In this document: positions 5,846 through 30,378 of the stretch, in pieces
How the letters are laid out: each line of letters starts with the position of its first letter
Position numbering within the stretch: position 1 is the first letter of the stretch
Assembly (NCBI RefSeq): GCF_023701345.1
Contig: NZ_JAMPXE010000011.1
Span: 1-43,332, forward strand
Direction of reading: 5' to 3'
From: Rhodoferax sp.
GTDB lineage: Bacteria > Pseudomonadota > Gammaproteobacteria > Burkholderiales > Burkholderiaceae_C
DNA length: 43,332 nucleotides
Notes under the pieces: model-generated
Told to the model about the DNA's origin: nothing
The model's database searches: none
Seen by the model: the letters and a program-made list of their open reading frames with translations, nothing else
Program-made: the position numbers and the translations under genes

Positions 5846-6940
5846 CTAGCCAATCGACTCGACCTGGCGCGACTGCTCGTAGGCGCTGCCAAAGCGGTTG
5901 GCCAGCAGATCCGGCAACACCACCTGCTCCTGGCGGATGAAGCCCGACATCGGCAACCTGCCTTCGCGGAACAGATCCACCGCCGCGCAGATACCGGCGG
6001 CGGTGGTGATCTGGATCGCGCTCATGGGGTGTTCTTCGGAGCGGTCGGCAAAAATCTTGCGCGCAAACACTTCCTGCACAAACTGGCCGTCGCGCTCGCC
6101 ACTGACTGTCACAAACACCAGCACCACGTCCTGCATGGTGAGCGGGATCGAGCGCCTGAAGATGGCCTTGAGCGTGGCCTGATCGTGCTGCATCCCCAAT
6201 TCCTGCAGCAGCATTTTCATCAGATCGCGGTGACCGGGGTAACGCACGGTTTTGTAATCCAGCGTTTGCACCCGGCCCCTGAGGGTGTCGCACAGCGTGC
6301 CCAGGCCGCCCGAGGTATTGAAGGCCTCGTACTCGGTGCCGTCCAGCGAGAAATGCTCCATGCCCTCGAGCGGCAGCGCCTCGATCAGCTCGCCGTTGTG
6401 GATGGCTTCGCAGGGATGGCAGTACTCGTTGATGAGGCCGTCGACACTCCAGGTCAGGTTGTATTTGAGCGCGTTGGTCGGGAACGCGGGCAGCGCGCCG
6501 ACACGCATCTTGACCTCGCGCAGGCTGCTGAATTTTTGGCTCAGGTGGTGCGCCACGATGCCGATAAAACCCGGCGCCAGACCGCACTGCGGCATGAAAG
6601 CCGTTTTGGCCCCGGACGCCAGTTGCATGATGCCGCGCGTCGCGGCCACGTCCTCGGTCAGGTCAAAGTAGTGACAGCCCGCCGCCTTGGCCTGGGTGGC
6701 CACGGTGAGCGCCAGGTGGTAAGGCAAGGCGTTGATGACCGCATCGAAACCTTGCAAACACTGCAACAACTCAGCCGCATTGGCGGTGTCCACCAGTTCG
6801 GTCTCCAGCTTGAGGTGGCTCAGGCTTTTCAGCGCCACCACGCTGCAGTCCACCACCTTGAGTTGGTAGTCGCCACTGCCTGAGAGCAGCCTGGCAATCA
6901 CCTGGCCAATGTGGCCGGCACCCATTAAAACAACACGCAT
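5846..6940 (-). CDS. Saccharopine dehydrogenase-like oxidoreductase (possible lysine 6-dehydrogenase)
   Basis: The 364-residue NAD(P)-dependent enzyme has an N-terminal Rossmann fold with GAGHIG at residues 8-13 and an acidic residue after the second strand (KVVDCS). A saccharopine-dehydrogenase-type C-terminal domain follows, with MPQCGLAPGFIGIVAHH, the segment that follows the Rossmann part in this family, and KTVRYPGHRDLMKML. Relatives include lysine 6-dehydrogenase, which oxidises L-lysine to a cyclic imine, and saccharopine reductases. Divergence from an Lrp/AsnC gene across a 139-bp region with inverted repeats suggests amino-acid-responsive control and a role in lysine (or related diamino acid) breakdown. 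Substrate assignment is inference. ATG at 6940. Confidence 0.75.
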   Translation of the reverse strand: MRVVLMGAGHIGQVIARLLSGSGDYQLKVVDCSVVALKSLSHLKLETELVDTANAAELLQCLQGFDAVINALPYHLALTVATQAKAAGCHYFDLTEDVAATRGIMQLASGAKTAFMPQCGLAPGFIGIVAHHLSQKFSSLREVKMRVGALPAFPTNALKYNLTWSVDGLINEYCHPCEAIHNGELIEALPLEGMEHFSLDGTEYEAFNTSGGLGTLCDTLRGRVQTLDYKTVRYPGHRDLMKMLLQELGMQHDQATLKAIFRRSIPLTMQDVVLVFVTVSGERDGQFVQEVFARKIFADRSEEHPMSAIQITTAAGICAAVDLFREGRLPMSGFIRQEQVVLPDLLANRFGSAYEQSRQVESIG

Positions 6941-7079: not shown

Positions 7080-7544
7080 ATGCCCGCTCCGCTTACCCCG
7101 ACTCCACCCGCCCTGCGCGATGCGCTGGACCGCGAACTGATCGCCCTGCTGCAAGCCAACGCGCGCGAATCCGCCGCCAATCTGGCGCGCAAACTCGGCA
7201 CCGCGCGCACCACCGTGCTGGCCCGCTTGAACCGGCTGGAACGTGAGGGCGTCATTGCCGGCTACACCGTGCGGCTGGCGCAGGACGTGCTGAACCAGGG
7301 GCTGCAGGCGTTTGTCGGCCTGACGGTGCAAGCCAAAGCCGGGCGCGAGGTCGAGACCCGTCTGGCGCGCATGCCCGAGGTGCGCCAGTTGTGCGCGGTC
7401 AGTGGCGAGTTTGATTACGTGTTGTTGCTGCGCGCCGAATCTGCCGTGCGGCTCAACACCTTGCTCGACGACATGCGCAACCTGGATGGCGTGGTGAAAA
7501 CCACCACCTCGGTGGCATTGGCCTGGAAGATTGAGCGCACCTGA
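7080..7544 (+). CDS. Lrp/AsnC family transcriptional regulator (first copy)
   Basis: The 154-residue protein has an N-terminal winged helix-turn-helix (about residues 14-65: LDRELIALLQANARESAANLARKLG, then ARTTVLARLNRLEREGVIAGY) and a C-terminal RAM/AsnC ligand-binding domain (about 75-150, with VRQLCAVSGEFDYVLLL). Members act as dimers or higher oligomers that sense an amino acid. It is transcribed divergently from the saccharopine-dehydrogenase-like gene and probably controls it and itself through the palindromes between them. It also lies 96 bp upstream of the FAD oxidase gene on the same strand and could affect that gene. The amino-acid effector cannot be read from the sequence. Confidence 0.9.
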   Translation: MPAPLTPTPPALRDALDRELIALLQANARESAANLARKLGTARTTVLARLNRLEREGVIAGYTVRLAQDVLNQGLQAFVGLTVQAKAGREVETRLARMPEVRQLCAVSGEFDYVLLLRAESAVRLNTLLDDMRNLDGVVKTTTSVALAWKIERT

Positions 7545-7640: not shown

Positions 7641-8789
7641 ATGCCTGTCAGTCGACCTTTTCCCCATGTTGTTGTGATCGGCGCCGGTATTGTGGGCGCG
7701 GCCACCGCCTTTTATCTCAGCCGCGCCGGTGCCCAGGTGACCGTGCTGGACGCGCAAACGCCGTCAGCGGGCGCCACCGGTGCTTCGGACGGCGCGGTGT
7801 CGGTGGCCAGCAAACGCCCCGGCGTGATGATGCAACTGGCGCGCCAGGCGCGCGACCTCTATGCCCAGCTGGTGCGCGAAGAAGTTTTGACCGACTTGTT
7901 CCATACCCGCCCCACTTACCTGTTTGCCCGCTCCGAGCTGGAAGTGGCGGTGATTGCCGCCCAGCAGCGCGACCTCGACAACCAGGGCGAGGCCACACTG
8001 TGGCTCGACCGCGCCATGCTGATGCGGCGCGTGCCGGGTTTGGGCACCAGCGTATTGGCCGGGCTCAAGGTGCCCAAAGACGGCCATGCCATTGGCTACC
8101 AAGTGACGCACCGCTTGTTGTCCTGCGCCAACGTGGTGCCCATGCGCCACACCCCGGTGCTTGATCTGGTGCTGTCCAACGACCGCGTGATCGGCGTCGA
8201 GACCCCGACCGGGCAGATTCTGGCTGACGTGGTGGTGCTGGCAGCCGGCATCGATTCAATGGCTTTCCTGGGCCTGGACAAGGTGATGATCCCGCGCAAG
8301 GGGCAGTTGATCGTGACCGACCGCGCCGCGTTTGGCTATGCGGTGCTGCCCGGCCCGCTGATGTCGGCGAGTTACCTGGCGTCCAAACACACGCCTACCG
8401 TCCAGCAAAGTTCGGTGAGCCTGGTGATTGACCCGCTGCGCACCGGCCAGTTCTTGCTGGGCAGCAGCCGCGAGACCGGCATACTGGATCGACAGACCGA
8501 CATCCGCACGGTGGCCACCATTTTGCGTGAGGCCATTGACGTCTATCCGCCGCTGGCGCGCCAACGCGTGATCCGCACCTTTGCCGGCATTCGCGCCACC
8601 ACCGAAGACGGCCTGCCCATTGTCGGCCGGCATCCGGAACTCGACGGCCTGATCGTCGCTACCGCCATGCAGGGCGACGGCATTTGCCTGGGGCCCCTGG
8701 TGGGTGCCGCCGTGGCGCGCTGGGCGCTGGGACAGGACAGCGCGCAAGACTTTGCCGCCTTGTCACCCGCGCGTTTTCTGAAAGTCTGA
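7641..8789 (+). CDS. FAD-dependent amine oxidase, OoxB/HcnC-like catalytic subunit
   Basis: The 382-residue protein is of the DAO (D-amino-acid oxidase/glycine oxidase) fold. The N terminus has the dinucleotide site VVVIGAGIVGAATAFYLS (GxGxxG, about residues 11-16) with ASDGAVSVASKRPG after it. The C terminus ends with GIRATTEDGLPIVGRH and ATAMQGDGICLGPLVG, typical of subunits that oxidise secondary amines in OoxAB, HcnABC and related hetero-oligomeric dehydrogenases. Its partners, an OoxA-like FAD/[2Fe-2S] subunit (11257-12564) and a small [2Fe-2S] protein (12551-12841), lie beyond the transporter genes on the opposite strand. Predicted role: oxidative cleavage of an N-alkylated amino acid. 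The stop codon is also the first triplet of a 51-bp tandem repeat. Confidence 0.75.
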   Translation: MPVSRPFPHVVVIGAGIVGAATAFYLSRAGAQVTVLDAQTPSAGATGASDGAVSVASKRPGVMMQLARQARDLYAQLVREEVLTDLFHTRPTYLFARSELEVAVIAAQQRDLDNQGEATLWLDRAMLMRRVPGLGTSVLAGLKVPKDGHAIGYQVTHRLLSCANVVPMRHTPVLDLVLSNDRVIGVETPTGQILADVVVLAAGIDSMAFLGLDKVMIPRKGQLIVTDRAAFGYAVLPGPLMSASYLASKHTPTVQQSSVSLVIDPLRTGQFLLGSSRETGILDRQTDIRTVATILREAIDVYPPLARQRVIRTFAGIRATTEDGLPIVGRHPELDGLIVATAMQGDGICLGPLVGAAVARWALGQDSAQDFAALSPARFLKV

Positions 8790-8893
8790 AACCTTGCGGG
8801 TCAGACCACTCACGCAGCGACGTGCTCTGACCCCAACCAACTTGAAACCTTGCGGGTCAGACCACTCGCGCAGCGATGTGCTCTGACCCCAAC
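8787..8893. repeat. Two tandem copies of a 51-bp hairpin repeat
   Basis: Copy 1 is 8787-8837 and copy 2 is 8843-8893, differing at two positions. Each carries GGGTCAGA and TCTGACCC as inverted arms (8798-8805 with 8826-8833 in copy 1), extended by CAC/GTG after one mismatch, around a 12-nt loop. They fill the gap between the converging OoxB-like gene and the ABC ATPase gene. They could serve as a bidirectional terminator. The form is also that of a dispersed REP-like element, but no transposase is near. Confidence 0.8.
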
Positions 8894-8896
8894 TAT

Positions 8897-9652
8897 TTAA
8901 GGTTTGTCGTGAAAGCGCGCCAAAAAGGCCTGGGTGGCAGCCTGCTGCGGGTGGTCGATCACGGCTTTGGCCGGTCCGCTTTCCACCACCACGCCGTCGC
9001 GCATAAACACCAGCACGTCGGCCACCTCGCGGGCAAAGGCAATCTCGTGGGTGACGATCACCATGGTCATGCCGTCTTTGGCCAGCGCCTGGATCACCGC
9101 CAGCACCTCACCCACCAGTTCGGGGTCGAGCGCCGAGGTGGCCTCGTCAAACAGCATCACCTGCGGCTGCATGGCCAGCGCGCGGGCAATCGCCACGCGC
9201 TGTTTCTGGCCGCCCGAGAGCTGCTGCGGATGCGCCTCGGCCTTGTCCGCCAGACCCACCTTGTCAAGCAGTTGCAACGCTTGTTCCCGCGCTTTTGCCT
9301 TGGGCGTGCGCAGCACGGTGACCATGCCCTCCATCACGTTTTGCAGCGCGGTCATGTGCGGGAACAGGTTGAAATGCTGGAACACCATGCCGGTGTTGGC
9401 GCGAAAGCGCGACAGCACGCGGTCGCCGGGCAGCTTGGTACTGGCGCCCTGGTAGCTGAATTCATGCTCACCCACCCGGATGCTGCCGGCGTCGGGCATG
9501 GTGAGCAGGTTGATGCAGCGCAACAGGGTGGATTTGCCAGAGCCAGACGGCCCCACCAGGGCCACCACCTGGCCCTTGTCCACGCGCATCGACACATCTC
9601 TTAATACAAGGTTGTCGCCAAACTGCTTGCGCAGGCCACGGATTTCAATCAT
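8897..9652 (-). CDS. Polar amino acid ABC transporter, ATP-binding protein
   Basis: The 251-residue ATPase is of the GlnQ/HisP/OccP type and powers uptake through the neighbouring permease. Walker A GPSGSGKST (about residues 34-42), a Q-loop, the signature LSGGQKQRVAIARALA (about 144-159) and Walker B VMLFDEATSALDP are all intact, followed by the switch histidine in VTHE. It is the last gene of a five-gene minus-strand unit (ferredoxin-like, OoxA-like, binding protein, permease, ATPase) and is separated from the permease gene by 18 bp. Octopine and nopaline importers belong to the same family, which fits the context. Substrate is inferred, not read. Confidence 0.93.
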   Translation of the reverse strand: MIEIRGLRKQFGDNLVLRDVSMRVDKGQVVALVGPSGSGKSTLLRCINLLTMPDAGSIRVGEHEFSYQGASTKLPGDRVLSRFRANTGMVFQHFNLFPHMTALQNVMEGMVTVLRTPKAKAREQALQLLDKVGLADKAEAHPQQLSGGQKQRVAIARALAMQPQVMLFDEATSALDPELVGEVLAVIQALAKDGMTMVIVTHEIAFAREVADVLVFMRDGVVVESGPAKAVIDHPQQAATQAFLARFHDKP

Positions 9653-9670
9653 GGATTTTCCCAGCAGAAT

Positions 9671-10327
9671 TTAAGTATCGGCGCGCCGCTCCAGCCGCTT
9701 GATCAGGCTGGTGGCGGGCACCAGAACGGCCAGGTACATCAACGCAATCAGCGTGTAGGTTTCCAGCGGGCGGTAGGTTTCATGCACCACGGCCTGCGCC
9801 TGGTAGACCAGATCCGGCAGCGCCACGATGGAGACCAGCGAGGTGTTCTTGAGCTGCATGATCGACTGGTTCAGCAGCGGCGGCGTCATGCGCCGCAGCG
9901 CCTGCGGCAACACCACGCGGCGCATGATCTGAAACCGCGTCATGCCCAGGGCGCGCGCGGCCTCGGTCTGGCCGACCTCGATCGAAATGATGCCGCCGCG
10001 GATGATCTCGGAGTAAAACGCGCCGCCGTAGAGCGACAGCGCCAGCACCGCCGCCATGGCCGGCGACATCTCGATGCCCAGCAGCACCGGCAGCGCGTAG
10101 TAAAACCAGATGATCTGTACCAGCACCGGGGTGGATCGAAACAGCTCCACATAACCCTTCATGGGCCAGCGCACCACGCCCCAGCGCGACAACTGCCCCA
10201 TGCCGGCGATCAGGCCAAACAGCAGTCCCAGGGCGATGCACATCACGGTGTAGCCCAGGGTGTAGAGCAAGCCGGTGGCAAACAGGCTGCGGTATTCCCA
10301 CAAAAATTCAAAATTCCACTGGTACAC
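9671..10327 (-). CDS. Polar amino acid ABC transporter, permease
   Basis: This HisM/GlnP-type membrane subunit of about 218 residues has roughly five hydrophobic segments. The cytoplasmic coupling EAA loop is visible as GQTEAARALGMTRFQIMRRVVLPQALRR (about residues 130-157), preceded by SEIIRGGIISIEVG, a classic family signature. I choose GTG 10327 because GGGAGA lies just upstream (10331-10336); a TTG at 10342 would add five residues. There is one permease gene only, so the channel would be a homodimer, unlike the Ti-plasmid opine importers with two permeases. It sits between the binding-protein and ATPase genes of the opine-like catabolic unit. Confidence 0.9.
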   Translation of the reverse strand: MYQWNFEFLWEYRSLFATGLLYTLGYTVMCIALGLLFGLIAGMGQLSRWGVVRWPMKGYVELFRSTPVLVQIIWFYYALPVLLGIEMSPAMAAVLALSLYGGAFYSEIIRGGIISIEVGQTEAARALGMTRFQIMRRVVLPQALRRMTPPLLNQSIMQLKNTSLVSIVALPDLVYQAQAVVHETYRPLETYTLIALMYLAVLVPATSLIKRLERRADT

Positions 10328-10353
10328 AGGGTCTCCCGTCAATCAATCGCACT

Positions 10354-11202
10354 TCAAAACTTGACGATCACCGGGATATCTTCCGGCTTGATGCCCATCA
10401 GCTTGTCCAGATTCGACAGCACGATCGGATTCACCTTGTCGGCAGCGCGCAGCTCGGTGATCCACTTGTCCACGTAGATTTGCCAGGTTTTGTCCTGTTC
10501 TTTGCGCAGACCGGCATTGGTGGTGGTGCCCTTGATGGGCTCGGGCACGATCAAATGGCCCACATTGGGGTTTTTCTTGAGGATGCCGGCCGACACCGTG
10601 ACCACCAGCGGCTGCACGTCGGCACGGCCGGTTTGCACCGCCATGGTGGCATCGTTGGATTTTTCAAAGCGCAGGATCTTGGCCTTGTCGTACATGGCCG
10701 TCACCAGGTTGTCGTAGGACGAGCCGACGTCCACGGCAATCGTCACCTCGGGCTTGTTCAGGTCATCCCAGGTCTTGGCCTGAAAGCCTTTTTTGGCAAT
10801 CAGCGTGAACGCGTTCTGGTACAGCGGCACGGTGAAATCGATCACCTCGCGGCGTTGCGGCGTCGGATTGAGGCCAAAAAAGATGTCGAGCTTGTTGGTC
10901 TGCAAATCCAGCACTGAATTGCCCCAGGTGGTCTCGGTCACCACCAGCTTGACGTTGAGCCTGGCTGCCAGGTCTTTGGCCAGGTCGACCATGATGCCGC
11001 TCCACTCGCCGGTGGCCAGGTTTTTCTGGTAATTTGGCGGCGCACCGGCGACCGCGCCGACGCGCAGGGTTTTGCTGCTGTTGATGCGATCCCAGGTGGT
11101 TTGATCCGCGCTGGGTGCCTGGGCCAGCGCAGTGCCGGTTAAGCAGCTGGCCGCCAGAGCGGCCACACCCATTGTGAAATGGCGTCGTTGGTTCAGTGTC
11201 AT
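10354..11202 (-). CDS. Amino acid ABC transporter, periplasmic substrate-binding protein
   Basis: The 282-residue protein belongs to the SBP_bac_3 family. It has a signal peptide (RR near the start, hydrophobic core, TALAQA cleavage region at about residues 23-28) and then the mature domain with LRVGAVAGAPPNYQ, LVVTETTWGNSVLDLQTNKLDI, FFGLNPTPQRREVIDFTVPL, and IAVDVGSSYD. It captures the ligand in the periplasm and hands it to the permease encoded just downstream. The arginine-binding aromatic box cannot be judged by eye, so the ligand is inferred from the neighbouring oxidase, arginase and cyclodeaminase. ATG 11202 has AGGAG upstream. Confidence 0.9.
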   Translation of the reverse strand: MTLNQRRHFTMGVAALAASCLTGTALAQAPSADQTTWDRINSSKTLRVGAVAGAPPNYQKNLATGEWSGIMVDLAKDLAARLNVKLVVTETTWGNSVLDLQTNKLDIFFGLNPTPQRREVIDFTVPLYQNAFTLIAKKGFQAKTWDDLNKPEVTIAVDVGSSYDNLVTAMYDKAKILRFEKSNDATMAVQTGRADVQPLVVTVSAGILKKNPNVGHLIVPEPIKGTTTNAGLRKEQDKTWQIYVDKWITELRAADKVNPIVLSNLDKLMGIKPEDIPVIVKF

Positions 11203-11256
11203 CGTCTTCTCCTGGTGAGGGCAAATACATTGCCGGTTGCAAAAATAATCGACCGC

Positions 11257-12564
11257 TCATGCATCGGTGTAGGCCGCCAGCGCCGCCACGGACACCGGCC
11301 GCAACGGCCAGCGTGGCGTGCTGCCGTGCAGCGCACCGAGTTCAAACGGCACCCCTGTCTCGGCCGCAAATTCCTGGACCGTGCGGGCACAAAAGCGGCC
11401 CTGGCAAGTTCCCATGGCAAAACGTCCCACCACGCGCATTTCATGCGGCGAAGCCGCGCCCTGGAGTGCGGCCAAGCTGGCGGCGCGCAAGCCTTCACAA
11501 CGGCAAACCACCGTTTCGGGCGTCATGCTTGGTGCGGGTGTGTGGTAGAGCGTGCGCAACGCCGCCTGCGTGCGCCGGGCGGCCTGCAACTGGCTGTCAA
11601 AATTCGCCATGCCATTGAGATGTCCCAAGGCCAGCGCAACCTGCTGGGCGGCGCGGCGGCCATCGCTGATGGCTGCATCGGCGCCCAACACTTCACGACA
11701 ATCCCCAGCCCACAGCACCGGCAAGCCCGGCGCATCCTGGCGCGGCAAGCCGGTCTGGTTGGCATCCAGGCCATCGTGCAAAGCCAGATGCGCCACCTCA
11801 TGCACCCGGGTTCGGCCATGGTGATCGACCACGGCCACGCGCAGACCGTGGGGCAGCGCTTCTATGGCGCTGACCCTGCAACCGGTGCGATAAGGCACGC
11901 CGGACTGCAACAGCTGCCAGGCATAACCCAGGGCTTCCGCCAGCTGCGGCCAACTGCGCATGCCGTTGAATGCCGCGCCAGGCTGCGCCAGCACGGCACG
12001 AAAAGGCTGGCCCCGCTCCAGCACAGCCAGCGGCGGATTGCCCGCAGCGGCCAATTGCGCCGCCAGGGCCAGCGGCAGGGGCCCGCTGCCCGCCACCAGG
12101 ATCGGACCCCGGGGGACCTCACCGGTTTCCTTGAGCTGCACCTGCATGCCACCTGCCGTGGTCACACCCGGCAACTCCCAGCCGGGCACCGGCAACACCC
12201 GCTCAATGCCACCGACCGCCATCACCACCGCCTTGGGGCGCACGCTGCGCACGCGCCCCGCAACACGGTCATCAAGCAGATAGCGGCCATCCCTCTCCAC
12301 GCCCAGAAAGACAGACTGGAATTGCAGGCTAAGCCGGTCGCCCACCTGTTGTACCTGGTCCAGCAAGCCCTGCCAGCGGCGTTGGTGGTGCGGGTTGCGC
12401 CTGATCTGGCTGGTACCCGCGCCCGCGTAGGCGCGATGGATGGCGCCGCCGAGCCGGTCACGCTGCTCGGCCAGCAGCACCGACAAGCCCATGCCGGCCA
12501 GCTCCACCGCAGCGGCGACCCCCGCCGGGCCGCCACCGACCACGAGCACGTCAGGCTGCCACAC
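11257..12564 (-). CDS. FAD/[2Fe-2S] oxidoreductase, OoxA/HcnB-like subunit
   Basis: The roughly 435-residue protein has an N-terminal pyridine-nucleotide-disulfide-type FAD fold (VLVVGGGPAGVAAAVELA, GxGxxG) and a second nucleotide site (ILVAGSGPLPLALAAQL). Its C-terminal BFD-like iron-sulphur domain has CRC (about residues 343-345) and CQGRFC (about 377-382), giving four cysteines for one [2Fe-2S] cluster. This architecture defines the alpha subunits of octopine/nopaline oxidases, HcnB and D-hydroxyproline dehydrogenase. It overlaps the upstream ferredoxin-like gene by 14 bp, so they are translationally coupled. GTG 12564 is preferred, with GAGG six bases upstream; GTG 12576 is the alternative. 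It should work with the OoxB-like subunit encoded at 7641-8789. Confidence 0.8.
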   Translation of the reverse strand: MWQPDVLVVGGGPAGVAAAVELAGMGLSVLLAEQRDRLGGAIHRAYAGAGTSQIRRNPHHQRRWQGLLDQVQQVGDRLSLQFQSVFLGVERDGRYLLDDRVAGRVRSVRPKAVVMAVGGIERVLPVPGWELPGVTTAGGMQVQLKETGEVPRGPILVAGSGPLPLALAAQLAAAGNPPLAVLERGQPFRAVLAQPGAAFNGMRSWPQLAEALGYAWQLLQSGVPYRTGCRVSAIEALPHGLRVAVVDHHGRTRVHEVAHLALHDGLDANQTGLPRQDAPGLPVLWAGDCREVLGADAAISDGRRAAQQVALALGHLNGMANFDSQLQAARRTQAALRTLYHTPAPSMTPETVVCRCEGLRAASLAALQGAASPHEMRVVGRFAMGTCQGRFCARTVQEFAAETGVPFELGALHGSTPRWPLRPVSVAALAAYTDA

Positions 12565-12841
12565 GATGCACCTCACGGGCCGGCAGCGCAGCCAGGGTGA
12601 GCTGTGCCCCGGCGCGGGCCGGCGTCAGACAGGCTTCTACCGGCGCCGCGCCATTGACCGACACCAGACAGGCCTGGCAGGCGCCAATGCCGCAAAAATA
12701 GCGGCCGCGCAATTGCCCCATGGCCGGCCCCAGATCAGCCACACCGGCACGCTGCAACGCGGCAGCAAAGCTCTCCCCCGGTCGGAACAGCACCGGGTAA
12801 CCCAGCCAGAAAAAGGTCTCGTCCATCATGATGGTGGTCAT
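12551..12841 (-). CDS. Small [2Fe-2S] ferredoxin-like subunit (HcnA/OoxG type)
   Basis: This 96-residue protein starts at ATG 12841. Cysteines lie as C-x4-C-x2-C (CGIGACQAC) with a fourth in EACLTP about 15 residues later, the plant-type [2Fe-2S] binding pattern of the small subunits of HcnABC-like and proline/hydroxyproline dehydrogenase complexes. Upstream of the first cysteine is FRPGESFAAALQRAGV, the usual beta-grasp lead-in. It would relay electrons from the flavin subunits. It is the first gene of the minus-strand unit that continues through the OoxA-like subunit and transporter. The start is uncertain: a TTG at 12883 and an ATG at 12829 are in frame, and no clear ribosome binding site decides between them. 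Confidence 0.75.
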   Translation of the reverse strand: MTTIMMDETFFWLGYPVLFRPGESFAAALQRAGVADLGPAMGQLRGRYFCGIGACQACLVSVNGAAPVEACLTPARAGAQLTLAALPAREVHRVAA

Positions 12842-12844
12842 TAC

Positions 12845-12856
12845 ATTTGAGCAAAT
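12845..12856. promoter_or_regulatory. Inverted repeat upstream of the oxidase-transporter unit
   Basis: ATTTG-AG-CAAAT (12845-12856) is perfect and sits directly before the ferredoxin-like ATG at 12841, in the 141-bp region shared with divergent arginase. It may be an operator for the nearby Lrp regulator. No confident promoter boxes were found in this region. Confidence 0.3.
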
Positions 12857-12982
12857 CGAGTGACGTATTAAACCCGAAATCAATCCGGTCCAGAGCGGTA
12901 AAAGCCGGCGAACTGACTAAACTGCGCAAAGCATTTCCAGATCGCACAATAACGCGCTTCACATGCAGGAACCCAACACACC

Positions 12983-13906
12983 ATGAACAGCAACATTTCC
13001 CTGATCGGCGCCCCCACCGACATTGGCGCCGGCAGCCGCGGCGCCAGCATGGGGCCGGAAGCCCTGCGTGTGGCCCACATTGCCACGGTGCTGGAAGGCC
13101 ACGGCCTGCAGGTGCTTGACCGGGGCAATCTGAGCGGCCCGAGCAACCCGTGGTTGCCACCGGTGGACGGTTACCGCCACCTGGCCGAGGTTGCCGCCTG
13201 GAACCAGACCGTGCATGATGCGGTGTACGCCGAGCTCCAGCAAGGTCGGCTGCCCATTTTGCTGGGTGGCGACCATTGCCTGGGCCTGGGTTCGATCAGC
13301 GCGGTGGCGCGCCACTGCCGCGACAGCGGCAAAAAACTGCGCGTGTTGTGGCTTGACGCCCATGCCGACTTCAACACCGCCACGCTCACCCCGAGCGGCA
13401 ATATCCACGGCATGCCGGTTGCCTGTTTGTGCGGTCACGGGCCGGAGGTGCTGACCCGGATCGGCGGTCAGGTGCCCGCCATCAATCCCAAGTGGGTGCG
13501 CCAGATCGGCATTCGCAGCGTCGATGAAGGCGAAAAGCGCCTGGTGCACGAAGCCGGGCTGGAAGTGTTTGACATGCGCTTCATCGACGAGATGGGCATG
13601 CGCGCCGCCATGGAGCTGGCGCTCGCGCTGGTCGACGCCAATACCCACTTGCATGTGAGCTTTGACGTCGACTTTCTCGACCCCGACATTGCGCCCGGCG
13701 TGGCCACCACGGTGCGCGGCGGCCCGACTTACCGCGAGGCGCAACTGTGCATGGAAATGATTGCCGACACCGGTCGGCTAGCGTCCCTGGACGTGATGGA
13801 ACTCAACCCGGCGTTTGACGTGCGCAACCGCACCGCCGAAGTGGCGGTGGACCTGATCGAGTCGCTGTTCGGCAAGAGCACGCTGATGCGCAAGACGACT
13901 CATTGA
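12983..13906 (+). CDS. rocF: Arginase
   Basis: It hydrolyses L-arginine to L-ornithine and urea with a binuclear manganese centre. The 307 residues contain all metal motifs in order: GGDHCLG (about 95-101), DAHADFN (about 122-128), SGNIHGMP (about 136-143) and SFDVDFLDPDIAPGV (about 226-240). The segments IGIRSVDEGEK and GGPTYREAQLCMEM are specific to true arginases rather than agmatinases. ATG 12983 has AGGA upstream. It is divergent from the OoxA-like/transporter unit and its stop codon overlaps that of ornithine cyclodeaminase by 7 bp on the opposite strand. With that gene it would convert arginine, released by the oxidase, to proline. Confidence 0.95.
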   Translation: MNSNISLIGAPTDIGAGSRGASMGPEALRVAHIATVLEGHGLQVLDRGNLSGPSNPWLPPVDGYRHLAEVAAWNQTVHDAVYAELQQGRLPILLGGDHCLGLGSISAVARHCRDSGKKLRVLWLDAHADFNTATLTPSGNIHGMPVACLCGHGPEVLTRIGGQVPAINPKWVRQIGIRSVDEGEKRLVHEAGLEVFDMRFIDEMGMRAAMELALALVDANTHLHVSFDVDFLDPDIAPGVATTVRGGPTYREAQLCMEMIADTGRLASLDVMELNPAFDVRNRTAEVAVDLIESLFGKSTLMRKTTH

Positions 13907-14967
13907 GCAAGCAAGGCGCCGAACAGGTTTTTCGGGTCGGCCATTTCAGGAATCAGGGCGATGGGCTCACCCAGCCCCAAGGCGCTCGCCGTCGCCAGCA
14001 TGTAACGCAGCGCCGAGTAGTCTTCCAGCGCAAACCCGACCGAATCGAACACCGTGACTTCCCCGGCATGTTGGCGCCCCGGGCGCTGACCGGCCAGCAC
14101 CTGCCACAACTCGGTCACGGCAAAGTCGCGCGGCATTTGCTGAATGTCGCCCTCAGTGCGGGTTTGCGGCGTGAATTCCACAAACACGCTGCCCCGCTGC
14201 AGGATGTCGGCGTGCAGCTCGGTCTTGCCCGGGCAGTCGCCGCCGACGCCGTTGATGTGCACGCCCGGCTCGACCATGTCAGGCGTCAGGATAGTGGCGT
14301 TGGTCTTGTCGGCGGTCAGGGTGGAGACGATGTCCGCGCCCTTGACGGCCTCGGCGGTGCTGGCACACACGGTGATGTTCAAACCCGAGTCCTTCAGGTT
14401 GGCCACCAGCTTGGCGGTGGCCGCCGGGTCGACGTCAAACAGGCGCAGCGACTCAATGCCCAACAAGTGCTGGAAGGCCAGCGCCTGGAATTCGCTTTGG
14501 GCACCGTTGCCGATCAAGGCCAGCACGCGGCTGTCCGGGCGCGCCAGGGCCTGTGCCGCCAGCGCCGAAGTGGCGGCGGTGCGCAAGGCCGTGGTCAGCG
14601 TCAGCTCGCTGAGCAGCAGCGGGATGCCGGTGGCCACGTCGGCCAGCACGCCAAACGCCATCACGGTAGACAGGCCAATGCGGGTGTTTTTGGGGTGGCC
14701 ATTGACGTACTTGAAACTGTAGAGCCGGTCGTCGGCAATCGGCATCAGCTCGATCACACCGTCTTCTGAATGGTTGGCGACGCGGGCCGATTTGTCAAAA
14801 TCGGGCCAGCGCAAAAAATCGGCACGGATGTTCTCGGCAATGCCGGCGATACAGGCGCTCACGCCCTGTATGCGGATCAGCCGGACCATCTCGGGCGCAC
14901 TCAAGTAAAGGGTGGCAACGCTCGGCCTGGTGGCGCTGGTAAAAGTGGTGTTTGCAGTCATGATCAT
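13900..14967 (-). CDS. ocd: Ornithine cyclodeaminase
   Basis: This NAD-dependent enzyme converts L-ornithine to L-proline and ammonia (mu-crystallin family). About 355 residues, matching the family. It has the Rossmann nucleotide segment ALIGNGAQSEFQALAF (about residues 142-157), substrate-binding KYVNGHPKN and the catalytic-aspartate motif NGVGGDCPGKTELH. ATG 14967 begins a sensible N terminus; a TTG at 15012 is unlikely and ATG 14961 is possible. It is convergent with arginase (7-bp overlap) and divergent from an Lrp gene across 129 bp containing several palindromes. In Agrobacterium Ti plasmids, arginase and Ocd complete octopine/nopaline catabolism, which matches the context here. Confidence 0.95.
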   Translation of the reverse strand: MIMTANTTFTSATRPSVATLYLSAPEMVRLIRIQGVSACIAGIAENIRADFLRWPDFDKSARVANHSEDGVIELMPIADDRLYSFKYVNGHPKNTRIGLSTVMAFGVLADVATGIPLLLSELTLTTALRTAATSALAAQALARPDSRVLALIGNGAQSEFQALAFQHLLGIESLRLFDVDPAATAKLVANLKDSGLNITVCASTAEAVKGADIVSTLTADKTNATILTPDMVEPGVHINGVGGDCPGKTELHADILQRGSVFVEFTPQTRTEGDIQQMPRDFAVTELWQVLAGQRPGRQHAGEVTVFDSVGFALEDYSALRYMLATASALGLGEPIALIPEMADPKNLFGALLAQ

Positions 14968-15032
14968 TGGCTCAGTCAGAGGGTTTTTTCGGTCAAGACA
15001 AGTGTGATGCAAGCTGGCGATAAATCAAATCG

Positions 15033-15065
15033 GCAAAAGTGTGCTGTTTTGCGCCAAAATTGGCG
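15033..15065. promoter_or_regulatory. Palindrome cluster in the ocd / Lrp divergent region
   Basis: GCAAAA (15033-15038) pairs with TTTTGC (15047-15052), and CGCCAA-AA-TTGGCG (15052-15065) follows directly, sharing one base. The cluster ends 31 bp before the Lrp ATG. This is the expected place for the Lrp protein to bind and control both itself and ocd. Site identity is inferred from position and symmetry. Confidence 0.5.
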
Positions 15066-15096
15066 TTTTGATAATTTCAATTAGCTTTTTGACACC

Positions 15097-15516
15097 ATGG
15101 ATGAACTTGACCAAAACCTGATCGGCCTGCTGCGGCAGAACGCCCGCATGAACGTGGCCGACCTGGCCTACAAGCTCAAGGTGTCGCGCGGCACCGTGAC
15201 CAACCGCATCCGCAAGCTCGAAGACAGTCAGGTCATTCTGGGCTTCACCGTGAAATTGCGGCCCGAATCGGAGCCTGACCGGATCCGGGCCTGGATGGAG
15301 GTGCTGGTCGAAGGCAACCAGACCCGGCTGGTGATTGCCAGCTTGCTGGGCGAGCCCGGCGTGGCAGCCCTGCACGACACCAATGGCCGCTGGGACCTGC
15401 TGGCCGAACTTGAGGCGACCTCGATGGCCGAGCTGTCGCAGATTCTGGAGCGCATCCGCCTGATCAAGGGCATCCGCAGCACCGAGACCAACATCCACCT
15501 GGCGACCTACCGCTAG
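15097..15516 (+). CDS. Lrp/AsnC family transcriptional regulator (second copy)
   Basis: The 139-residue protein has a helix-turn-helix at about residues 2-50 (LDQNLIGLLRQNARMNVADLAYKL then VSRGTVTNRIRKLEDSQVI) and a RAM ligand domain at about 65-135. It differs clearly from the copy at 7080-7544. It is divergent from ocd and next to the arginase/oxidase block, so it is the likely sensor for arginine, ornithine or the imported compound. Ti-plasmid opine regions use LysR regulators (OccR, NocR), so an Lrp-type regulator is a difference. ATG 15097. Confidence 0.9.
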   Translation: MDELDQNLIGLLRQNARMNVADLAYKLKVSRGTVTNRIRKLEDSQVILGFTVKLRPESEPDRIRAWMEVLVEGNQTRLVIASLLGEPGVAALHDTNGRWDLLAELEATSMAELSQILERIRLIKGIRSTETNIHLATYR

Positions 15517-15647: not shown

Positions 15648-18281
15648 TTGAACATTCACTTTCATAAAACCATGTTGCCGCCCTGGATGGCCCGGCGCCA
15701 ACGCTGGCGCCTGATCGCTCAATGGGGGTTGCTGTTGGCCGTGCTTTTGCCTGATTCCTGGGCTCAGGCTGCCAACCCGCCAGCGCGCACGGTGCGGGTC
15801 GGCGTCTATGAAAACGCCCCCAAATTGCTGCTGGGCGAAGCGGGGCAGCCCAGCGGCATTCTGGGCGACGTGTTGATGGCCATGGCCGCACAGGAGCACT
15901 GGAACGTGGTGGCGGTGCCCTGTGAATGGCAGGCCTGTCTGGAAGCGCTGGCCAGAGCAGAGATCGACCTGATGCCCGATGTCGCCTACACCGACCAGCG
16001 GGCACAGCTTTTTGATTTTCATCAAGTGCCGGCTCTGTTGAGCTGGTCGCAACTTTACAAACTCAAGGGCACCCCCATCCAGGCCATCACAGATTTGCAC
16101 GGCAAGCGCATCGCGGTCGTGGCCGGCTCGATCCAGGCATCGTCATTGAAAAACATGCTCGACAGTTTTGCGGTGACTGCCACGCTGGTTCAAGTGGTTT
16201 CTTTCGAAGAGGGATTTGAACAGGTGCAGCAGCGCAACGTTGATGCCGTCGCGGCCAACCGTTTTTTTGGTGATATGCAGGCGCCCCGCTTTAACGTCGA
16301 ATCGACCGCCGTGGTGTTTCAACCGGCACAACTGTATTACGCCACCGCCAAGGATAAAAATGGGGCGCTGCTGGCCGCCATTGACCGCCATTTAAAGGCT
16401 TGGCAAGCGCAGTCCGACTCACCCTATGCGGCCGCTTTGCAGCGCTGGATGCAAAGCGCCCCCGCTTTTGAGATACCGGCTTACCTGTGGTGGGTGCTGT
16501 CAGGTTTATTCTCCGCCCTGTTGCTGGCACTCGCCCTGAATGCCTGGCTGCGCCAGCAGGTGGTGCAAAAAACAGCCCGTATCCGTGCCGATGAAGAACG
16601 GCTCAACACCATTCTCAACAGCGTGGATGCCTTCATCTACATCAAGGATCTGGAACTGCGTTACCAGTATGCCAACAGCCGGGTCGCGCAGCTGTTTGGC
16701 CGCAGCGCCGAACAGGTGATCGGGCAAACGGACAGTGCATTTTTCGATGCGGCCACGGTGGCCAAGTTGCGCGCCCATGATTTACGCGTGATTGAACACG
16801 GTGAGCGCGTCGAAGAGGAAGAAATCAACCGCAGCATTGATGGCCAGGTGACGCAGAGCTTTTTGTCAGTCAAGCTGCCCCTGCGCGACAGTGAGGGCCA
16901 CATTTATGCCTTATGCGGCATCTCGACCGACATGACCCGGCGCGTGCAGGCCGAAGAAGCCATCCATCAACTGGCGTTTTACGACTCCCTGACTGGTCTG
17001 CCCAACCGGCGCCTGTTGCAGGACCGGGTACAACAGCTGCTGAGCTCGCTGTCACGCATGCCCCAAAGCGCCGCTCTGATGTTTCTCGACGTGGACAATT
17101 TCAAGGACATCAACGACACCCTGGGCCATGATGTCGGTGACGAGTTGCTGCACCAGATTGCCGAACGCATGCGCGAATGCGTCAGGGCCCAGGACACCCT
17201 GGCGCGCCAGGGTGGCGATGAGTTCGTGGTGATGCTGGTCAACCTCAGCACCCAGCCGGGGGAAGCGGCACGGCAGGCACAACAGGTGGCGCAAAAACTT
17301 CTGCACCGACTCAGCCAAACGTACCAGTTGGGCACGCACAGCTGCCAAACCAGCGTCAGCATCGGGGTCACCCTGATTGAGGGACCGAACGAAACGCGTG
17401 AAGAGCTTTTAAAACAGGCCGACATGGCCATGTACCAAGCCAAGGCCGCCGGACGCAATACCCTGCGCTTTTTCAACCCCGAAATGCAGGCCCTGGTGGT
17501 GGCCCGCACCACGCTCGAGGCCGACCTGCGCTGGGCCCTGGCGCATGATGAATTTGTCCTGTATTACCAGCCACAGGTGAATGACCAGGGGCAAACACTT
17601 GGCTTTGAGGCGCTGCTGCGCTGGCAGCACCCGATGCGCGGCTTGATCCTGCCCGCTGAATTCATCGCAGTAGCGGAATCTTCCGGCCTGATCGTGGCGT
17701 TGGGGGACTGGGTGCTGCGCAACGCCTGTCTTCAGTTGCAGGCATTTTCACAGCAGGCGTCGCAGCGCCATTGGACCGTTGCAGTCAATGTCGGCGCGGC
17801 GCAATTCCGGCAGACCGATTTTGTCACCCGGGTACAAACGACACTGCAGCAAACCGGCGCTAATCCGGCACGGCTGGAACTGGAACTGACAGAGAGCCAA
17901 CTGGTCGACGATATGCCCGACGTGATGGCCAAGATGGATGCGCTGCGAGATGTTGGCGTGCGCTTGTCGCTGGACGACTTTGGCACCGGCTACTCGTCAC
18001 TGGCCATTCTCAAGAGGCTACCACTTGACCAGCTCAAAATTGACCAGGGGTTCGTCCACAACATGCTCGACGACCCACAAAACGCCAGCATCATCCGCGC
18101 CATCGTCACGCTCGGCGACAGCCTGGGGCTGGCGGTGATTGCCGAGGGCGTGGAGCGCGCGGTGCAACGCGATGCCTTGCTGGCGCTGGGCTGCCGCCAT
18201 TTCCAGGGCTATCTGTTTGGCCAGCCGACACCGGGTCCCGCGGCCGCCGCATACGCCATGGACAGCGCTCAGGCCGGGTAG
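15648..18281 (+). CDS. Membrane receptor with solute-binding, PAS, GGDEF and EAL domains
   Basis: The 877-residue protein is predicted to make and/or degrade cyclic-di-GMP. Order: N-terminal signal or anchor (about 18-43), periplasmic SBP_bac_3-like domain (about 45-265, beginning RTVRVGVYENAPKLLLGE), membrane segment (about 280-302), PAS (about 320-440, ILNSVDAFIYIKD), GGDEF (RQGGDEF at about 520-526) and EAL (GFEALLRW at about 652-659, DDFGTGYSSL at about 776-785). Both catalytic signatures look intact, so either activity is possible. The binding domain suggests sensing an amino acid or similar ligand directly. The TTG at 15648 is uncertain; ATG 15672 is in frame and leaves a complete signal sequence. 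Its 3' end overlaps convergent yggS by 13 bp. Confidence 0.9.
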   Translation: MNIHFHKTMLPPWMARRQRWRLIAQWGLLLAVLLPDSWAQAANPPARTVRVGVYENAPKLLLGEAGQPSGILGDVLMAMAAQEHWNVVAVPCEWQACLEALARAEIDLMPDVAYTDQRAQLFDFHQVPALLSWSQLYKLKGTPIQAITDLHGKRIAVVAGSIQASSLKNMLDSFAVTATLVQVVSFEEGFEQVQQRNVDAVAANRFFGDMQAPRFNVESTAVVFQPAQLYYATAKDKNGALLAAIDRHLKAWQAQSDSPYAAALQRWMQSAPAFEIPAYLWWVLSGLFSALLLALALNAWLRQQVVQKTARIRADEERLNTILNSVDAFIYIKDLELRYQYANSRVAQLFGRSAEQVIGQTDSAFFDAATVAKLRAHDLRVIEHGERVEEEEINRSIDGQVTQSFLSVKLPLRDSEGHIYALCGISTDMTRRVQAEEAIHQLAFYDSLTGLPNRRLLQDRVQQLLSSLSRMPQSAALMFLDVDNFKDINDTLGHDVGDELLHQIAERMRECVRAQDTLARQGGDEFVVMLVNLSTQPGEAARQAQQVAQKLLHRLSQTYQLGTHSCQTSVSIGVTLIEGPNETREELLKQADMAMYQAKAAGRNTLRFFNPEMQALVVARTTLEADLRWALAHDEFVLYYQPQVNDQGQTLGFEALLRWQHPMRGLILPAEFIAVAESSGLIVALGDWVLRNACLQLQAFSQQASQRHWTVAVNVGAAQFRQTDFVTRVQTTLQQTGANPARLELELTESQLVDDMPDVMAKMDALRDVGVRLSLDDFGTGYSSLAILKRLPLDQLKIDQGFVHNMLDDPQNASIIRAIVTLGDSLGLAVIAEGVERAVQRDALLALGCRHFQGYLFGQPTPGPAAAAYAMDSAQAG

Positions 18282-27291: not shown

Positions 27292-30200
27292 TCAGGCCCG
27301 GCGCAGGGTCGCCGGCAAGCCGTTGCGCACCGCGGCGCCGGAGACCGCATCGACCCAGGGCGATTTGTCAGGGCGGGTCGGGTCGATCAGGCCAATGTCG
27401 TTCAGGTTGACCCCGGCCGCCAGACGCCGGTCCTGCGGCTGGCGGGCCTCTCCAAGGCGATGCGCCCGAGCCCCCAGTTCACGATGGCCGAAGCCATGCT
27501 CGAATGCCGCCACCCCAGGCGTGATGCCGGCATGCACCATGACCCGGGCCTTGAGGCTGCCCGCCGGCGTCGTGATCACCGTCAGATCGCCCATTTTCAA
27601 ATGCAGGCGCTGGGCATCGTCCGGATGGATCAGCACCGGGTTTTCCGGATGCAGGCCGAGCAGACGGGTGGCCCCGATCGAGTACGGGTTTTGCAGCGCC
27701 GACTTGTAGCTGACCAGTTGCATGGGCCACTTGTCAACCGGATAGAGCTTGCGCACTGGCGTGCCATCGGCAAACGAGGGCTCGACCCAGCTCGCGCAAC
27801 CGCTGTAGCGTTTGCCCGTCAGGCTGTTCTTCGAGGCGCCGACATTCTCGTTCCACAAATGGGACATGGCCTTCATCGGGTTACGCATCCACTCCGGATT
27901 TTCCTCGTCGTAGGCGTCCTTGCCCGGCTGATAGCGACCGCCCCGGCTGAACAGGAAAGCGACCTTGGCCACCTCTTCAGGCTTCAGCGTCTTTTCCAGC
28001 AACGGGCGAATGCGCTCGACACCGCTGAGGCGAATGTCGTCCTCGGTCGCATCGGCCACCGGCTCCTTGCCCAGCCAGGCAATGTTGGCGCCACCGCGCA
28101 AGTACCAGTCCTCGGGCCCGTTCAGGTCATAGGTGTTGCCGTCCGGATCACTGAGCGCCGCCGCGCCAAAGCCGGGCAGCTGCATGGCCTTGGCCAGCGC
28201 GATGAAGAAGGTTTCCATGCCGATGGCACGGCCCTCGGGCGTCTTCGCCGCTTTGGGCTCGATGACCGGCCAGCGCGCGCCCATCGCCTTGGTGGGGACG
28301 CCGTTCCAGGCCGCCACCCAGCCCCAGCTCTCGTACATCAGCGAATCCGGAATGATGTAGTCGGCGTAGGCGTTGCTCTCGTTGATGAAGGGGTCGACCG
28401 AGATGATCAGTGGCAGCTTTTTCGGATCGGCCAGGTCCTTGGCAATCTTGTTGCGCAGACCAGTGACGCCGTACAGCGGATTGGACGACCAGAGCACCAG
28501 CGCCTTCAGCGCATAAGGGTAGCCACTGATGCCGCCGGGCAGCAGTTCGGTGGTGAGGCCGGGCGCATTGGGAAACCATGGCGCGGTTGCCGGATAGGGC
28601 TTGTTGTCCGCTTTCCTGGCGGCAAATTCGGCGGTTTTCTCATAAGGCACATTGCGCCCCAGCGGGGTGCCGGAAGGCTTGACCATGCCGGGAAAAGTAG
28701 CCAGGTTGTAGCGCGGCCCCTCGCCGCTGTCCTTGAAGCCGCCGCCGTTGGCAACGAAACCGCCCTTCCAGTTGATATTGCCCAGCAGCGCATTGATGCT
28801 CATCAGCGCATAGGCGTTGTAGAAACCGCTGCCACTCATCATGCCGCCGTGGGCGATGACCGAGGCGTGTTTGCCGTGCGAGGCCAGCTCCTTGGCCAGC
28901 GCCGCCAGGGTCTCGGCCGGGATGCCACAGGCCTGGGCATAGGCGCCCAGCTCCATGCGCATGGCTTCTTCACGCAGCAGTTGCAGCGAGGACTTAACCC
29001 GGATCTCCTGGCCGCCGACCGCCAGCATGGTGTCAACAAACAGAGGGGCCGGACCCTTGGCCTGGTCGCTGAACACCGGCTTGCCCGCATCATCCAGACA
29101 AACGAAGGCATCGCCCTCTTTGTAGCGTTCTTCTTCAGGCATTTCGACGCCCAGGTCGGAGGCGCGCAGGAAGCGCCGCTCGCGCGGATGTTTCGGCTCA
29201 ACCACGACCAGATGGGTCGCGTTGGAGAACGAGGGTTCGCCATTTTCCTTGGCCAGTTCAGCGTTCGGAAAACTCAGGAACCGGCTGTCAATGCGTTCGT
29301 TCTCGAACAGCCAGCGGATGATGGACATTGCCATCGCACCGTCGGTTCCCGGGCGGATGGGCAACCAGCGACCCCGATCACCACTGGCGCGGTTGTCGGC
29401 GTGGGTCAGCACCGGGTCGACCACCACATAGGACAGCTTGCCCTCGGTGCGCGCCTTGGCGACCAAGGTGCCCTGGCGCTTGAACGGGTTGCCGGCCTGC
29501 CCGGGTGCCGTGCCGACAAAGAGCACAAACTCCGCATTGGCAAAATCCGGCTTGCAATGCGGCATGGCCTTCATGTCGCCGAACAGTGCGCCCGAACCCG
29601 AACGGTAGGAGCCGCCGCAATAAGAGCCATGGCCGACGAAGTTGAGGGTGCCGTAGGACTGCTGGAAGAATCGGCGCGCGAAGCTGTCACGACCATCGTT
29701 GACGCTGGACAGCACCGCCACCTGGTTGACGCGGGGCCCGAGCGCCGGCTGGGTGCTGTCAATGGGCGTTTTCAGATCGCGCAGGGCAGCCAGTCCATCG
29801 ACGTGCCCTTCGCCAAACAAGTCGCCGCCTTCGACCAGCTCCTTGACCAGTTGATCAAAGGCAATCGGCTCCCATTGACCGCTGTTGCGCGAACCGACGC
29901 GCTTGAGCGGCGTCAGGACGCGATACGGCGAGTCAATTTGCTGCGCCACCGCGTTGCCGCGTCCGCAAGCCGTGGAGCGCCCCGCCAAGCCCTTGCCCTT
30001 GTGGGCGGAAATGGCAATGAAACTCTCACGCACGCTGGCCTTCATCGGCAGGTGCGGATCGGTGGAAAGGGGACTGTAGGGGTTGCCCGCGACCCGCAGC
30101 ACTTTGCCTGAAGCACGGTCGATGCGCACGCGCACGCCGCACATCGTGGTGCAACCCAGGCAAGTCGTGTAGCTGATCTGCTGGGCTGGATTGATGTCGA

Positions 30201-30378
30201 GATTGCCCTGGCGATCCACGCGGAACTCGGGTGCCGGGGCGTCCCCCGCTGTTTTGTGCTTGGGGGCATCCTTGCCAAGCAGCTTGCCAACCACACGGCC
30301 CGCGGTTTCGGAGTAGCCGACGGCAAAGGCGGCCAGACCACCAAGTGCGAGAACTTGACGACGTTTGCTGATTTTCAT
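27292..30378 (-). CDS. ttrA: Tetrathionate reductase catalytic subunit TtrA (molybdopterin)
   Basis: The 1028-residue molybdopterin-bis-guanine-dinucleotide enzyme reduces tetrathionate to thiosulfate in the periplasm. Twin-arginine signal at the start (KISKRRQVLALGG). [4Fe-4S] cysteines C73, C76, C80 and C138 (CLGCTTMC and STACGRG). The candidate molybdenum-ligand cysteine lies in GHGSYCGGSYRSGSGAL. Close matches to Salmonella TtrA run the full length (GGDLFGEGHVDGL, IAHGGMMSGSGFYNA, SGYPYALKA, GFGHRELGA). ATG 30378 has GGAG seven bases upstream; its ATGA overlaps the ttrC stop. Third gene of the ttrBCA order. Confidence 0.95.
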   Translation of the reverse strand: MKISKRRQVLALGGLAAFAVGYSETAGRVVGKLLGKDAPKHKTAGDAPAPEFRVDRQGNLDINPAQQISYTTCLGCTTMCGVRVRIDRASGKVLRVAGNPYSPLSTDPHLPMKASVRESFIAISAHKGKGLAGRSTACGRGNAVAQQIDSPYRVLTPLKRVGSRNSGQWEPIAFDQLVKELVEGGDLFGEGHVDGLAALRDLKTPIDSTQPALGPRVNQVAVLSSVNDGRDSFARRFFQQSYGTLNFVGHGSYCGGSYRSGSGALFGDMKAMPHCKPDFANAEFVLFVGTAPGQAGNPFKRQGTLVAKARTEGKLSYVVVDPVLTHADNRASGDRGRWLPIRPGTDGAMAMSIIRWLFENERIDSRFLSFPNAELAKENGEPSFSNATHLVVVEPKHPRERRFLRASDLGVEMPEEERYKEGDAFVCLDDAGKPVFSDQAKGPAPLFVDTMLAVGGQEIRVKSSLQLLREEAMRMELGAYAQACGIPAETLAALAKELASHGKHASVIAHGGMMSGSGFYNAYALMSINALLGNINWKGGFVANGGGFKDSGEGPRYNLATFPGMVKPSGTPLGRNVPYEKTAEFAARKADNKPYPATAPWFPNAPGLTTELLPGGISGYPYALKALVLWSSNPLYGVTGLRNKIAKDLADPKKLPLIISVDPFINESNAYADYIIPDSLMYESWGWVAAWNGVPTKAMGARWPVIEPKAAKTPEGRAIGMETFFIALAKAMQLPGFGAAALSDPDGNTYDLNGPEDWYLRGGANIAWLGKEPVADATEDDIRLSGVERIRPLLEKTLKPEEVAKVAFLFSRGGRYQPGKDAYDEENPEWMRNPMKAMSHLWNENVGASKNSLTGKRYSGCASWVEPSFADGTPVRKLYPVDKWPMQLVSYKSALQNPYSIGATRLLGLHPENPVLIHPDDAQRLHLKMGDLTVITTPAGSLKARVMVHAGITPGVAAFEHGFGHRELGARAHRLGEARQPQDRRLAAGVNLNDIGLIDPTRPDKSPWVDAVSGAAVRNGLPATLRRA

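Follow-up and report, generated by a model that had tools for sequence, protein, structure and literature searches.

An importer and a three-subunit flavin dehydrogenase, probably a separate unit, within an arginine-catabolic region of Rhodoferax sp.

Contig NZ_JAMPXE010000011.1 of Rhodoferax sp. (assembly GCF_023701345.1) was analyzed over positions 1–43,332 of the forward strand; this whole stretch of 43,332 nt is called the window. It carries an amino-acid importer, a dehydrogenase of three subunits (alpha, beta and gamma; here 'the oxidase') and genes for arginine catabolism (Table 1). The gene order is dadX (−), lplT (+), aroG (−), a lysine-dehydrogenase-like gene (SacDH, −), Lrp1 (+), beta (+), ATP-binding cassette (ABC) ATPase (−), permease (−), binding protein (−), alpha (−), gamma (−), arginase (+), ornithine cyclodeaminase (OCD, −), Lrp2 (+), a GGDEF-EAL gene (+), yggS (−) and pilT (+). 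An earlier note on this DNA described an opine-type locus acting as one unit. Every gene it named is an intact open reading frame (ORF) in the place given, and importer, three-subunit flavin/iron–sulfur (FeS) dehydrogenase and an arginine → ornithine → proline branch do lie together; left out were Lrp1 and SacDH, both of which bear on how the site arose. Our results probably describe two neighboring units: an importer with a three-subunit dehydrogenase for perhaps a cationic amine, inserted in an older Rhodoferax region of basic-amino-acid catabolism.

Table 1. Genes of the importer/oxidase block and of the adjoining catabolic region in the window
Feature	Position	Strand	Evidence
Beta (catalytic) flavin subunit, DAO fold	7641–8789	+	Intact ORF; Pfam DAO; tree; motifs; AlphaFold model
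ABC importer ATPase, polar amino acid type	8897–9652	−	Intact ORF; domain matches
ABC importer permease (single)	9671–10342	−	Intact ORF; domain matches
Periplasmic binding protein, SBP family 3	10354–11202	−	Intact ORF; domain matches; solved-chain match AncCDT-1
Alpha flavin subunit	11257–12576	−	Intact ORF; domain; tree; C-terminal C-X-C-X30-C-X4-C
Gamma [2Fe-2S] subunit	12551–12883	−	Intact ORF; C-X4-C-X2-C-X12-C; start codon uncertain
Arginase, adjoining arginine module	12983–13906	+	TIGR01229 above cut-off; in 44/60 genus genomes
OCD, adjoining arginine module	13900–15012	−	NF005762 above cut-off
Lrp2, Lrp/AsnC-type regulator going with arginase/OCD	15097–15516	+	Domain match; gene neighbors in relatives
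Lrp1, second Lrp/AsnC-type regulator	7080–7544	+	Arginase is the next gene in three unoccupied sites
SacDH, saccharopine/lysine 6-dehydrogenase-like	5846–6940	−	Sacchrp_dh_C domain; PDB 3abi match

Domain scores are far beyond chance (DAO 188 bits, Fer2_4 43 bits). The arginase, which the note had called a true one, and the OCD both pass curated equivalog models (288.4 bits against a cut-off of 227.6 for TIGR01229; 562 bits against 350 for NF005762). Each of the oxidase subunits is intact; alpha and beta carry dinucleotide motifs, alpha and gamma cysteine motifs. The gamma cysteine spacing is the one published for flavin opine dehydrogenase (OpnDH) in PMC4575208. The alpha cysteine spacing is 30, versus 15–20 as printed; the same scan of eight rows of the Nox/Oox clade gave 27, 32 or 33.

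An AlphaFold model of beta, built from a 26-sequence alignment, has a mean pLDDT (predicted local distance difference test) of 85.5, falling below 50 at residues 40–49 and 253–257. Its best fold matches in the PDB are glycine oxidases; it also folds like iminodiacetate oxidase, the beta subunit of Pyrococcus horikoshii L-proline dehydrogenase and the flavin opine dehydrogenase of Aureimonas, and identity across the listed folds is 22–25%. The substrate of beta is not readable from the predicted fold alone.

The subunit plan, with two flavin adenine dinucleotide (FAD) flavoproteins and a small [2Fe-2S] protein, is that of OdhABC and of the Ti-plasmid oxidases NoxBCA and OoxBCA (PMC4575208). OdhABC is a chromosomal opine dehydrogenase purified from Pseudomonas putida and Bradyrhizobium japonicum genes, small subunit included, and chromosomal copies are described in P. 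putida KT2440 and B. japonicum (same source). The noc region of pTiC58 (L054; L numbers denote loci) reads NoxB-FeS-NoxA, rocF, OCD, and the occ region of pTiA6 (L055) reads importer, OoxB-FeS-OoxA, OCD; in both, the small [2Fe-2S] gene sits between the two large subunits. The separate small FeS subunit therefore does not distinguish the window from Ti loci, as the note had supposed, being present there and in OdhABC (PMC4575208). As in the window, an importer is close by in pTiA6, an arginase in pTiC58 and OCD in both. With functional parts equal to those of noc and occ, the complex could oxidize an N2-substituted arginine of octopine or nopaline type and so supply arginine to the arginase and OCD encoded next to it. 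Opine activity can arise on beta subunits that are poorly related, as in OpnDH types 1 and 2 (PMC4575208), which favors this possibility. We nonetheless consider it unlikely, for reasons that begin with the sequences of the large subunits.

By blastp, beta has 24% identity to OoxB over 358 residues (72 bits) and 33% to NoxB over 192 residues (70.5 bits), and alpha has 34% identity to NoxA over 374 residues (123 bits). The highest beta scores, up to 143 bits, are to loci with a proline-racemase-family gene, compared with at most 95 bits for the Nox/Oox clade. Such loci suggest a D-hydroxyproline or D-proline dehydrogenase of the Lhp-type imino-acid pathway, whose subunit plan also matches the window. 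Alpha gives this alternative no such advantage: its best hydroxyproline-type score (120 bits) is no better than that to NoxA and lies below the 154 bits to a Comamonas protein of the Nox clade.

To place both large subunits, we computed trees from 54 beta and 53 alpha sequences with a midpoint root. The 31 rows of the window family were chosen by hand from the relatives fetched, and hydroxyproline-type loci were recognized by a neighboring proline-racemase-family gene, PF05544, not by assay. The trees are without L004 (Ensifer) and without L153 (Thioclava), in which alpha has no beta next to it; L149 lacks an alpha row and sits on a very long branch. They are also without the assayed P. putida OdhABC, B. 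japonicum OdhB2 and HcnABC; type 2 is represented by gene order alone, with three loci in gamma-alpha-beta order (L154, L155, L159) as stand-ins.

The window family forms a single clade in both trees (support 100/99 for beta and 100/100 for alpha). Neither subunit clusters with NoxB/OoxB or NoxA/OoxA, which form a separate group with their plasmid kin, and joining the window family and Nox/Oox by constraint, a grouping named post hoc, was rejected by the approximately unbiased (AU) test (p-AU 0.0233 for beta, 0.0109 for alpha). A third group holds 11 same-family loci (of 12 fetched) with the PF05544 gene directly next to beta, and the window oxidase lies outside it in both trees. The phylogeny thus upholds the note's idea of a lineage distinct from the Ti oxidases; its terms OoxA-like and OoxB-like hold at superfamily level and fail at family level. 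Both trees place the window and hydroxyproline groups on one side of the midpoint root; because the root is a midpoint, we make no claim that the two are sisters. One sequence in these trees is probably mislabeled: a locus on a Klebsiella oxytoca plasmid (L151, 4513–7311), annotated HcnABC, groups with Ti Nox/Oox, and octopine-type importer genes adjoin it.

The active-site marks of beta (D50, D264, R-T-F at 312–314 and G-D-G at 345–347) separate the window family from both reference groups. Position 50 is D in the window family, M in the hydroxyproline type and F in Nox/Oox; position 264 is D, Q and R, respectively; position 314 is F in the window family and W in both others; and position 346 is D, versus L or H in the hydroxyproline type and a gap in Nox/Oox. 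All 11 hydroxyproline-type loci differ from the window at all four positions. Arg-X-Trp, proposed for binding of flavin mononucleotide (FMN) in opine, hydroxyproline and proline dehydrogenases (PMC4575208), is Arg-X-Phe in 31/31 window-clade rows; Trp occurs in all 22 reference rows (11 hydroxyproline-type, 8 Nox/Oox and kin, 3 in gamma-alpha-beta order). The changes R → D at 264 and W → F at 314, like the separate clade of both large subunits, count against opine oxidation.

The own clade and these constant differences also exclude the oxidase from the hydroxyproline dehydrogenases as a family member, and no epimerase or proline racemase is among the genes identified around the window block. 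In addition, the DapA encoded near the oxidase in two relatives passes the true DapA model and is just 27–31% like the DapA-type genes in 8 of the 12 stretches L138–L149. Activity on D-hydroxyproline or D-proline is accordingly very unlikely in our estimate.

A positively charged substrate would suit the loss of the Nox/Oox arginine and the gain of acidic residues better than a dicarboxylic opine would. The best solved-chain match of the binding protein, AncCDT-1, is a reconstructed arginine binder (PMC7683729); other matches are cyclohexadienyl-dehydratase-type and amino-acid-binding chains. Only 63 residues align with the octopine binding protein OccT, at 32% identity. The relation to an arginine binder is compatible with an arginine-releasing opine oxidase as well; together with the acidic marks D50, D264 and D346, it hints at a cationic substrate, such as a basic D-amino acid or an N-substituted basic amino acid, in preference to octopine or nopaline.

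Relatives of the oxidase were found by scanning genome contigs (84,980 species) with two short peptide patterns from an alignment of ours. Of the 144 that encoded a relative, the best 80, representing 79 loci, were retained. These comprise 21 'Rhodoferax-type' loci, chosen by record titles and identity, and 58 others, with full flanks in 12/21 and 52/58, respectively. Neighbors were counted within 9.5 kb of beta using identity thresholds (50% for arginase and OCD). The importer accompanies the oxidase widely: among the 58 other loci, 54 have the binding protein, 52 the permease and 49 the ATPase, the last also in 16/21 Rhodoferax-type loci. A LysR gene is near in 54/58, ALDH (aldehyde dehydrogenase) in 48, DapA in 49, a SacDH (lysine-dehydrogenase-like) gene in 47, DapB in 36 and an Asp/Glu-racemase-family protein in 15. 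In contrast, neither arginase nor OCD was found near the oxidase at 50% identity or above in any of the 58 (0/58 each), which argues against the release of arginine from an opine as the family's task; weaker matches are an arginase-like protein in L131 (27%) and an OCD-like protein in L120 (30%). Arginase is near in 6 and OCD in 2 of the 21 Rhodoferax-type loci; in contrast to the Ti loci, this linkage is restricted here to one Rhodoferax-type subclade. The note listed Lrp in place of LysR among the differences from Ti loci, and these counts show nothing special in it: LysR is the usual neighbor of the oxidase, and the Lrp genes belong with arginase.

Rhizobiales and some Burkholderiales carry operons whose flavin subunits both belong to the window's clade and whose importer is largely shared. 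This widespread arrangement, seen in L003, L004, L057, L058 and most of L094–L137, comprises LysR, oxidase beta-gamma-alpha, ALDH, often a DapB-like gene, DapA, the importer and a lysine-dehydrogenase-like gene; the Chelatococcus operon has no DapB. We found no publication describing such an operon in a literature search made mostly without subscription papers. DapA is above the curated model in both loci tested, L057 and L003 (315 and 320 bits, cut-off 206), and DapB of L057, the one locus tested, is slightly below its cut-off (117 versus 122 bits). This gene set suggests that the family might oxidize the D-center of diaminopimelate or of a similar cyclic diacid, with DapB, DapA and ALDH of the alphaproteobacteria running lysine biosynthesis in reverse to pyruvate and aspartate, and with Rhodoferax retaining a reduced version served by household enzymes. 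Unlike these operons, the window locus has no ALDH, DapA, DapB or LysR gene. Among relatives that have the full set, L071 is the nearest (beta 64%, transporter 73–78%); its DapA has just 41–43% matches in 4/60 Rhodoferax genomes, and its ALDH has no match in the 60 at the set thresholds, in a search without a positive control. Rhodoferax thus has a reduced version. Reverse flux through lysine biosynthesis is also probably uphill at DapB. We regard the diaminopimelate route as quite unlikely. A broader conjecture, itself improbable, takes the oxidase clade as an additional functional class of heterotrimeric FAD/FMN/[2Fe-2S] amine dehydrogenases that act on a cationic amino acid, for example diaminopimelate, a glycated basic amino acid or a basic D-amino acid; it would feed DapB, DapA and ALDH in alphaproteobacteria and occur in Rhodoferax as a reduced importer and dehydrogenase within the lysine/arginine region. 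Separately, four rhizobial loci (L052, L053, L129, L131) combine the same oxidase clade with a peptide-type ABC importer, and with an amidase in some, which hints at a different substrate there.

Within the genus, we compared 60 Rhodoferax-group genomes (G numbers), the window's own included, counting beta at ≥59% identity (at least); matches of only 31–36% in three further genomes were treated as other enzymes. Beta is present in 14/60 genomes, arginase in 44/60 and SacDH in 12/60. Beta shows no significant association with arginase (12/14 versus 32/46, Fisher p 0.31) and a weak one with SacDH (6/14 versus 6/46, p 0.024, kinship not corrected for). Oxidase and arginase are adjacent in six of the 12 genomes that have both (G000, G513, G531, G550, G552, G558). 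In the other six they are ~416 kb apart (G565), ~20 kb apart (G546) or on different contigs (G514, G524, G535, G555), and the 5–20 kb read around those arginases holds no oxidase block. That arginase mostly occurs without the oxidase further lowers the case for an arginine-releasing oxidase.

Arginase, OCD, both Lrp genes and SacDH of the window all have close genus relatives with matching neighbors. Three sites lack the oxidase block (G532, G535 and G512; L210, L211 and L215): SacDH and Lrp1 stand back to back there, and the gap from Lrp1 to arginase is within ~20–45 bases. The oxidase block of G535 lies on a different contig (L044). Arginase, OCD and Lrp2 are neighbors without the oxidase in L213, L214, L218, L219 and L220; they adjoin yggS-pilT in L213, L214 and L219, with transporter genes separating OCD from Lrp2 in L213. 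Relative to OCD, the window's arginase is reversed compared with L213, L214, L219 and L220. The window's gene order is thus composite: its left side is the SacDH/Lrp1/arginase arrangement, its right side is the OCD/Lrp2/yggS/pilT arrangement, and the importer/oxidase block splits Lrp1 from arginase. In Rhodoferax ferrireducens (L067), SacDH, Lrp1 and a LysR gene precede the oxidase block and arginase is not beside it; the LysR gene, usual near the oxidase elsewhere, is missing at the window locus. In both genus relatives tested, L202 and L210, the ALDH close to SacDH is a piperideine-6-carboxylate dehydrogenase (NF050084: 807 and 815 bits, cut-off 730), which gives the SacDH side the look of a region for lysine/arginine catabolism; the window differs in having no such gene next to SacDH. 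A Rhodoferax bin (L134, 4651–6857) has a seemingly decayed oxidase block: its beta and alpha matches are fragmented with no transporter match between them, and its arginase and Lrp2 are matched along the whole of their length.

Trees, motifs and the occurrence of arginase mainly without the oxidase rule out a single opine unit as the leading interpretation. The unoccupied sites with Lrp1 directly before arginase tell against locus unity as well. The note's opine interpretation is partly supported, as a sketch of a pathway, and is unsupported for the enzyme family and for the unity of the locus.

The two-unit arrangement that we favor would work as follows. In the first unit (~7641–12883), the binding protein and ABC transporter would import an amino-acid-like amine, and beta would oxidize its C–N bond with FAD. 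By homology, electrons would pass from FMN to the alpha FAD, the [2Fe-2S] cluster and the respiratory chain, and hydrolysis of the imine would yield a keto acid and an amine. The second unit (Lrp1, arginase, OCD, Lrp2, SacDH) would convert arginine through ornithine to proline and lead lysine towards aminoadipate. The first unit would have entered between Lrp1 and arginase, losing the LysR gene usual in relatives.

Several observations weigh against this arrangement. Gamma has arginase as its neighbor in 6 of the 7 close-clade genomes (beta ≥90%, 7/60), which also favors arginine release by the oxidase; the contig of the seventh (G563) stops before this position, and that genome yielded no arginase. 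Co-regulation is possible for arginase and gamma, which have a short divergent promoter region in common. The site varies among genus relatives, as other genes or gaps separate Lrp1 from arginase: a chemotaxis receptor in L202 and 1.7–3.8 kb gaps in L203, L204 and L205. The choice between insertion and loss, and hence the direction of change, rests on gene order without a dated tree. The guanine–cytosine (GC) content of the importer/oxidase block (0.64) is like that of its flanks (0.61–0.67), so base composition gives no support to a recent foreign island. At the thresholds applied, no close counterpart of the relatives' ALDH or DapA emerged from the 60 Rhodoferax genomes. The best reference score of alpha, to the Comamonas protein, points towards the Nox/Oox clade. 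As for the substrate, the pocket argument is alignment-based, and residues 40–49 fall in a low-confidence part of the beta model. D50, D264, F314 and D346 are each found in 31/31 tree rows and 26/26 rows of a second alignment (A2, overlapping rows), a constancy that for D50 and D346 is partly by construction, both lying within the peptide patterns used to find relatives; D264 and F314 are independent of those patterns, and some rows came from non-pattern searches.

The comparison guards against the label 'opine locus' spreading from gene content alone. It also delimits a well-bounded dehydrogenase clade, without an assay that we could find, whose members in soil and root bacteria have a common importer and a conserved operon (oxidase, ALDH, DapB, DapA, lysine-dehydrogenase-like gene).

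Elsewhere in the window, a GGDEF-EAL protein (15648–18281, +), whose N-terminal part resembles a periplasmic binding protein by eye, is encoded by a gene retained next to Lrp2/yggS across the window's close clade. A 1053-aa molybdopterin oxidoreductase adjoining an NrfD-type membrane subunit (27292–31490, −) probably marks a respiratory molybdoenzyme locus.

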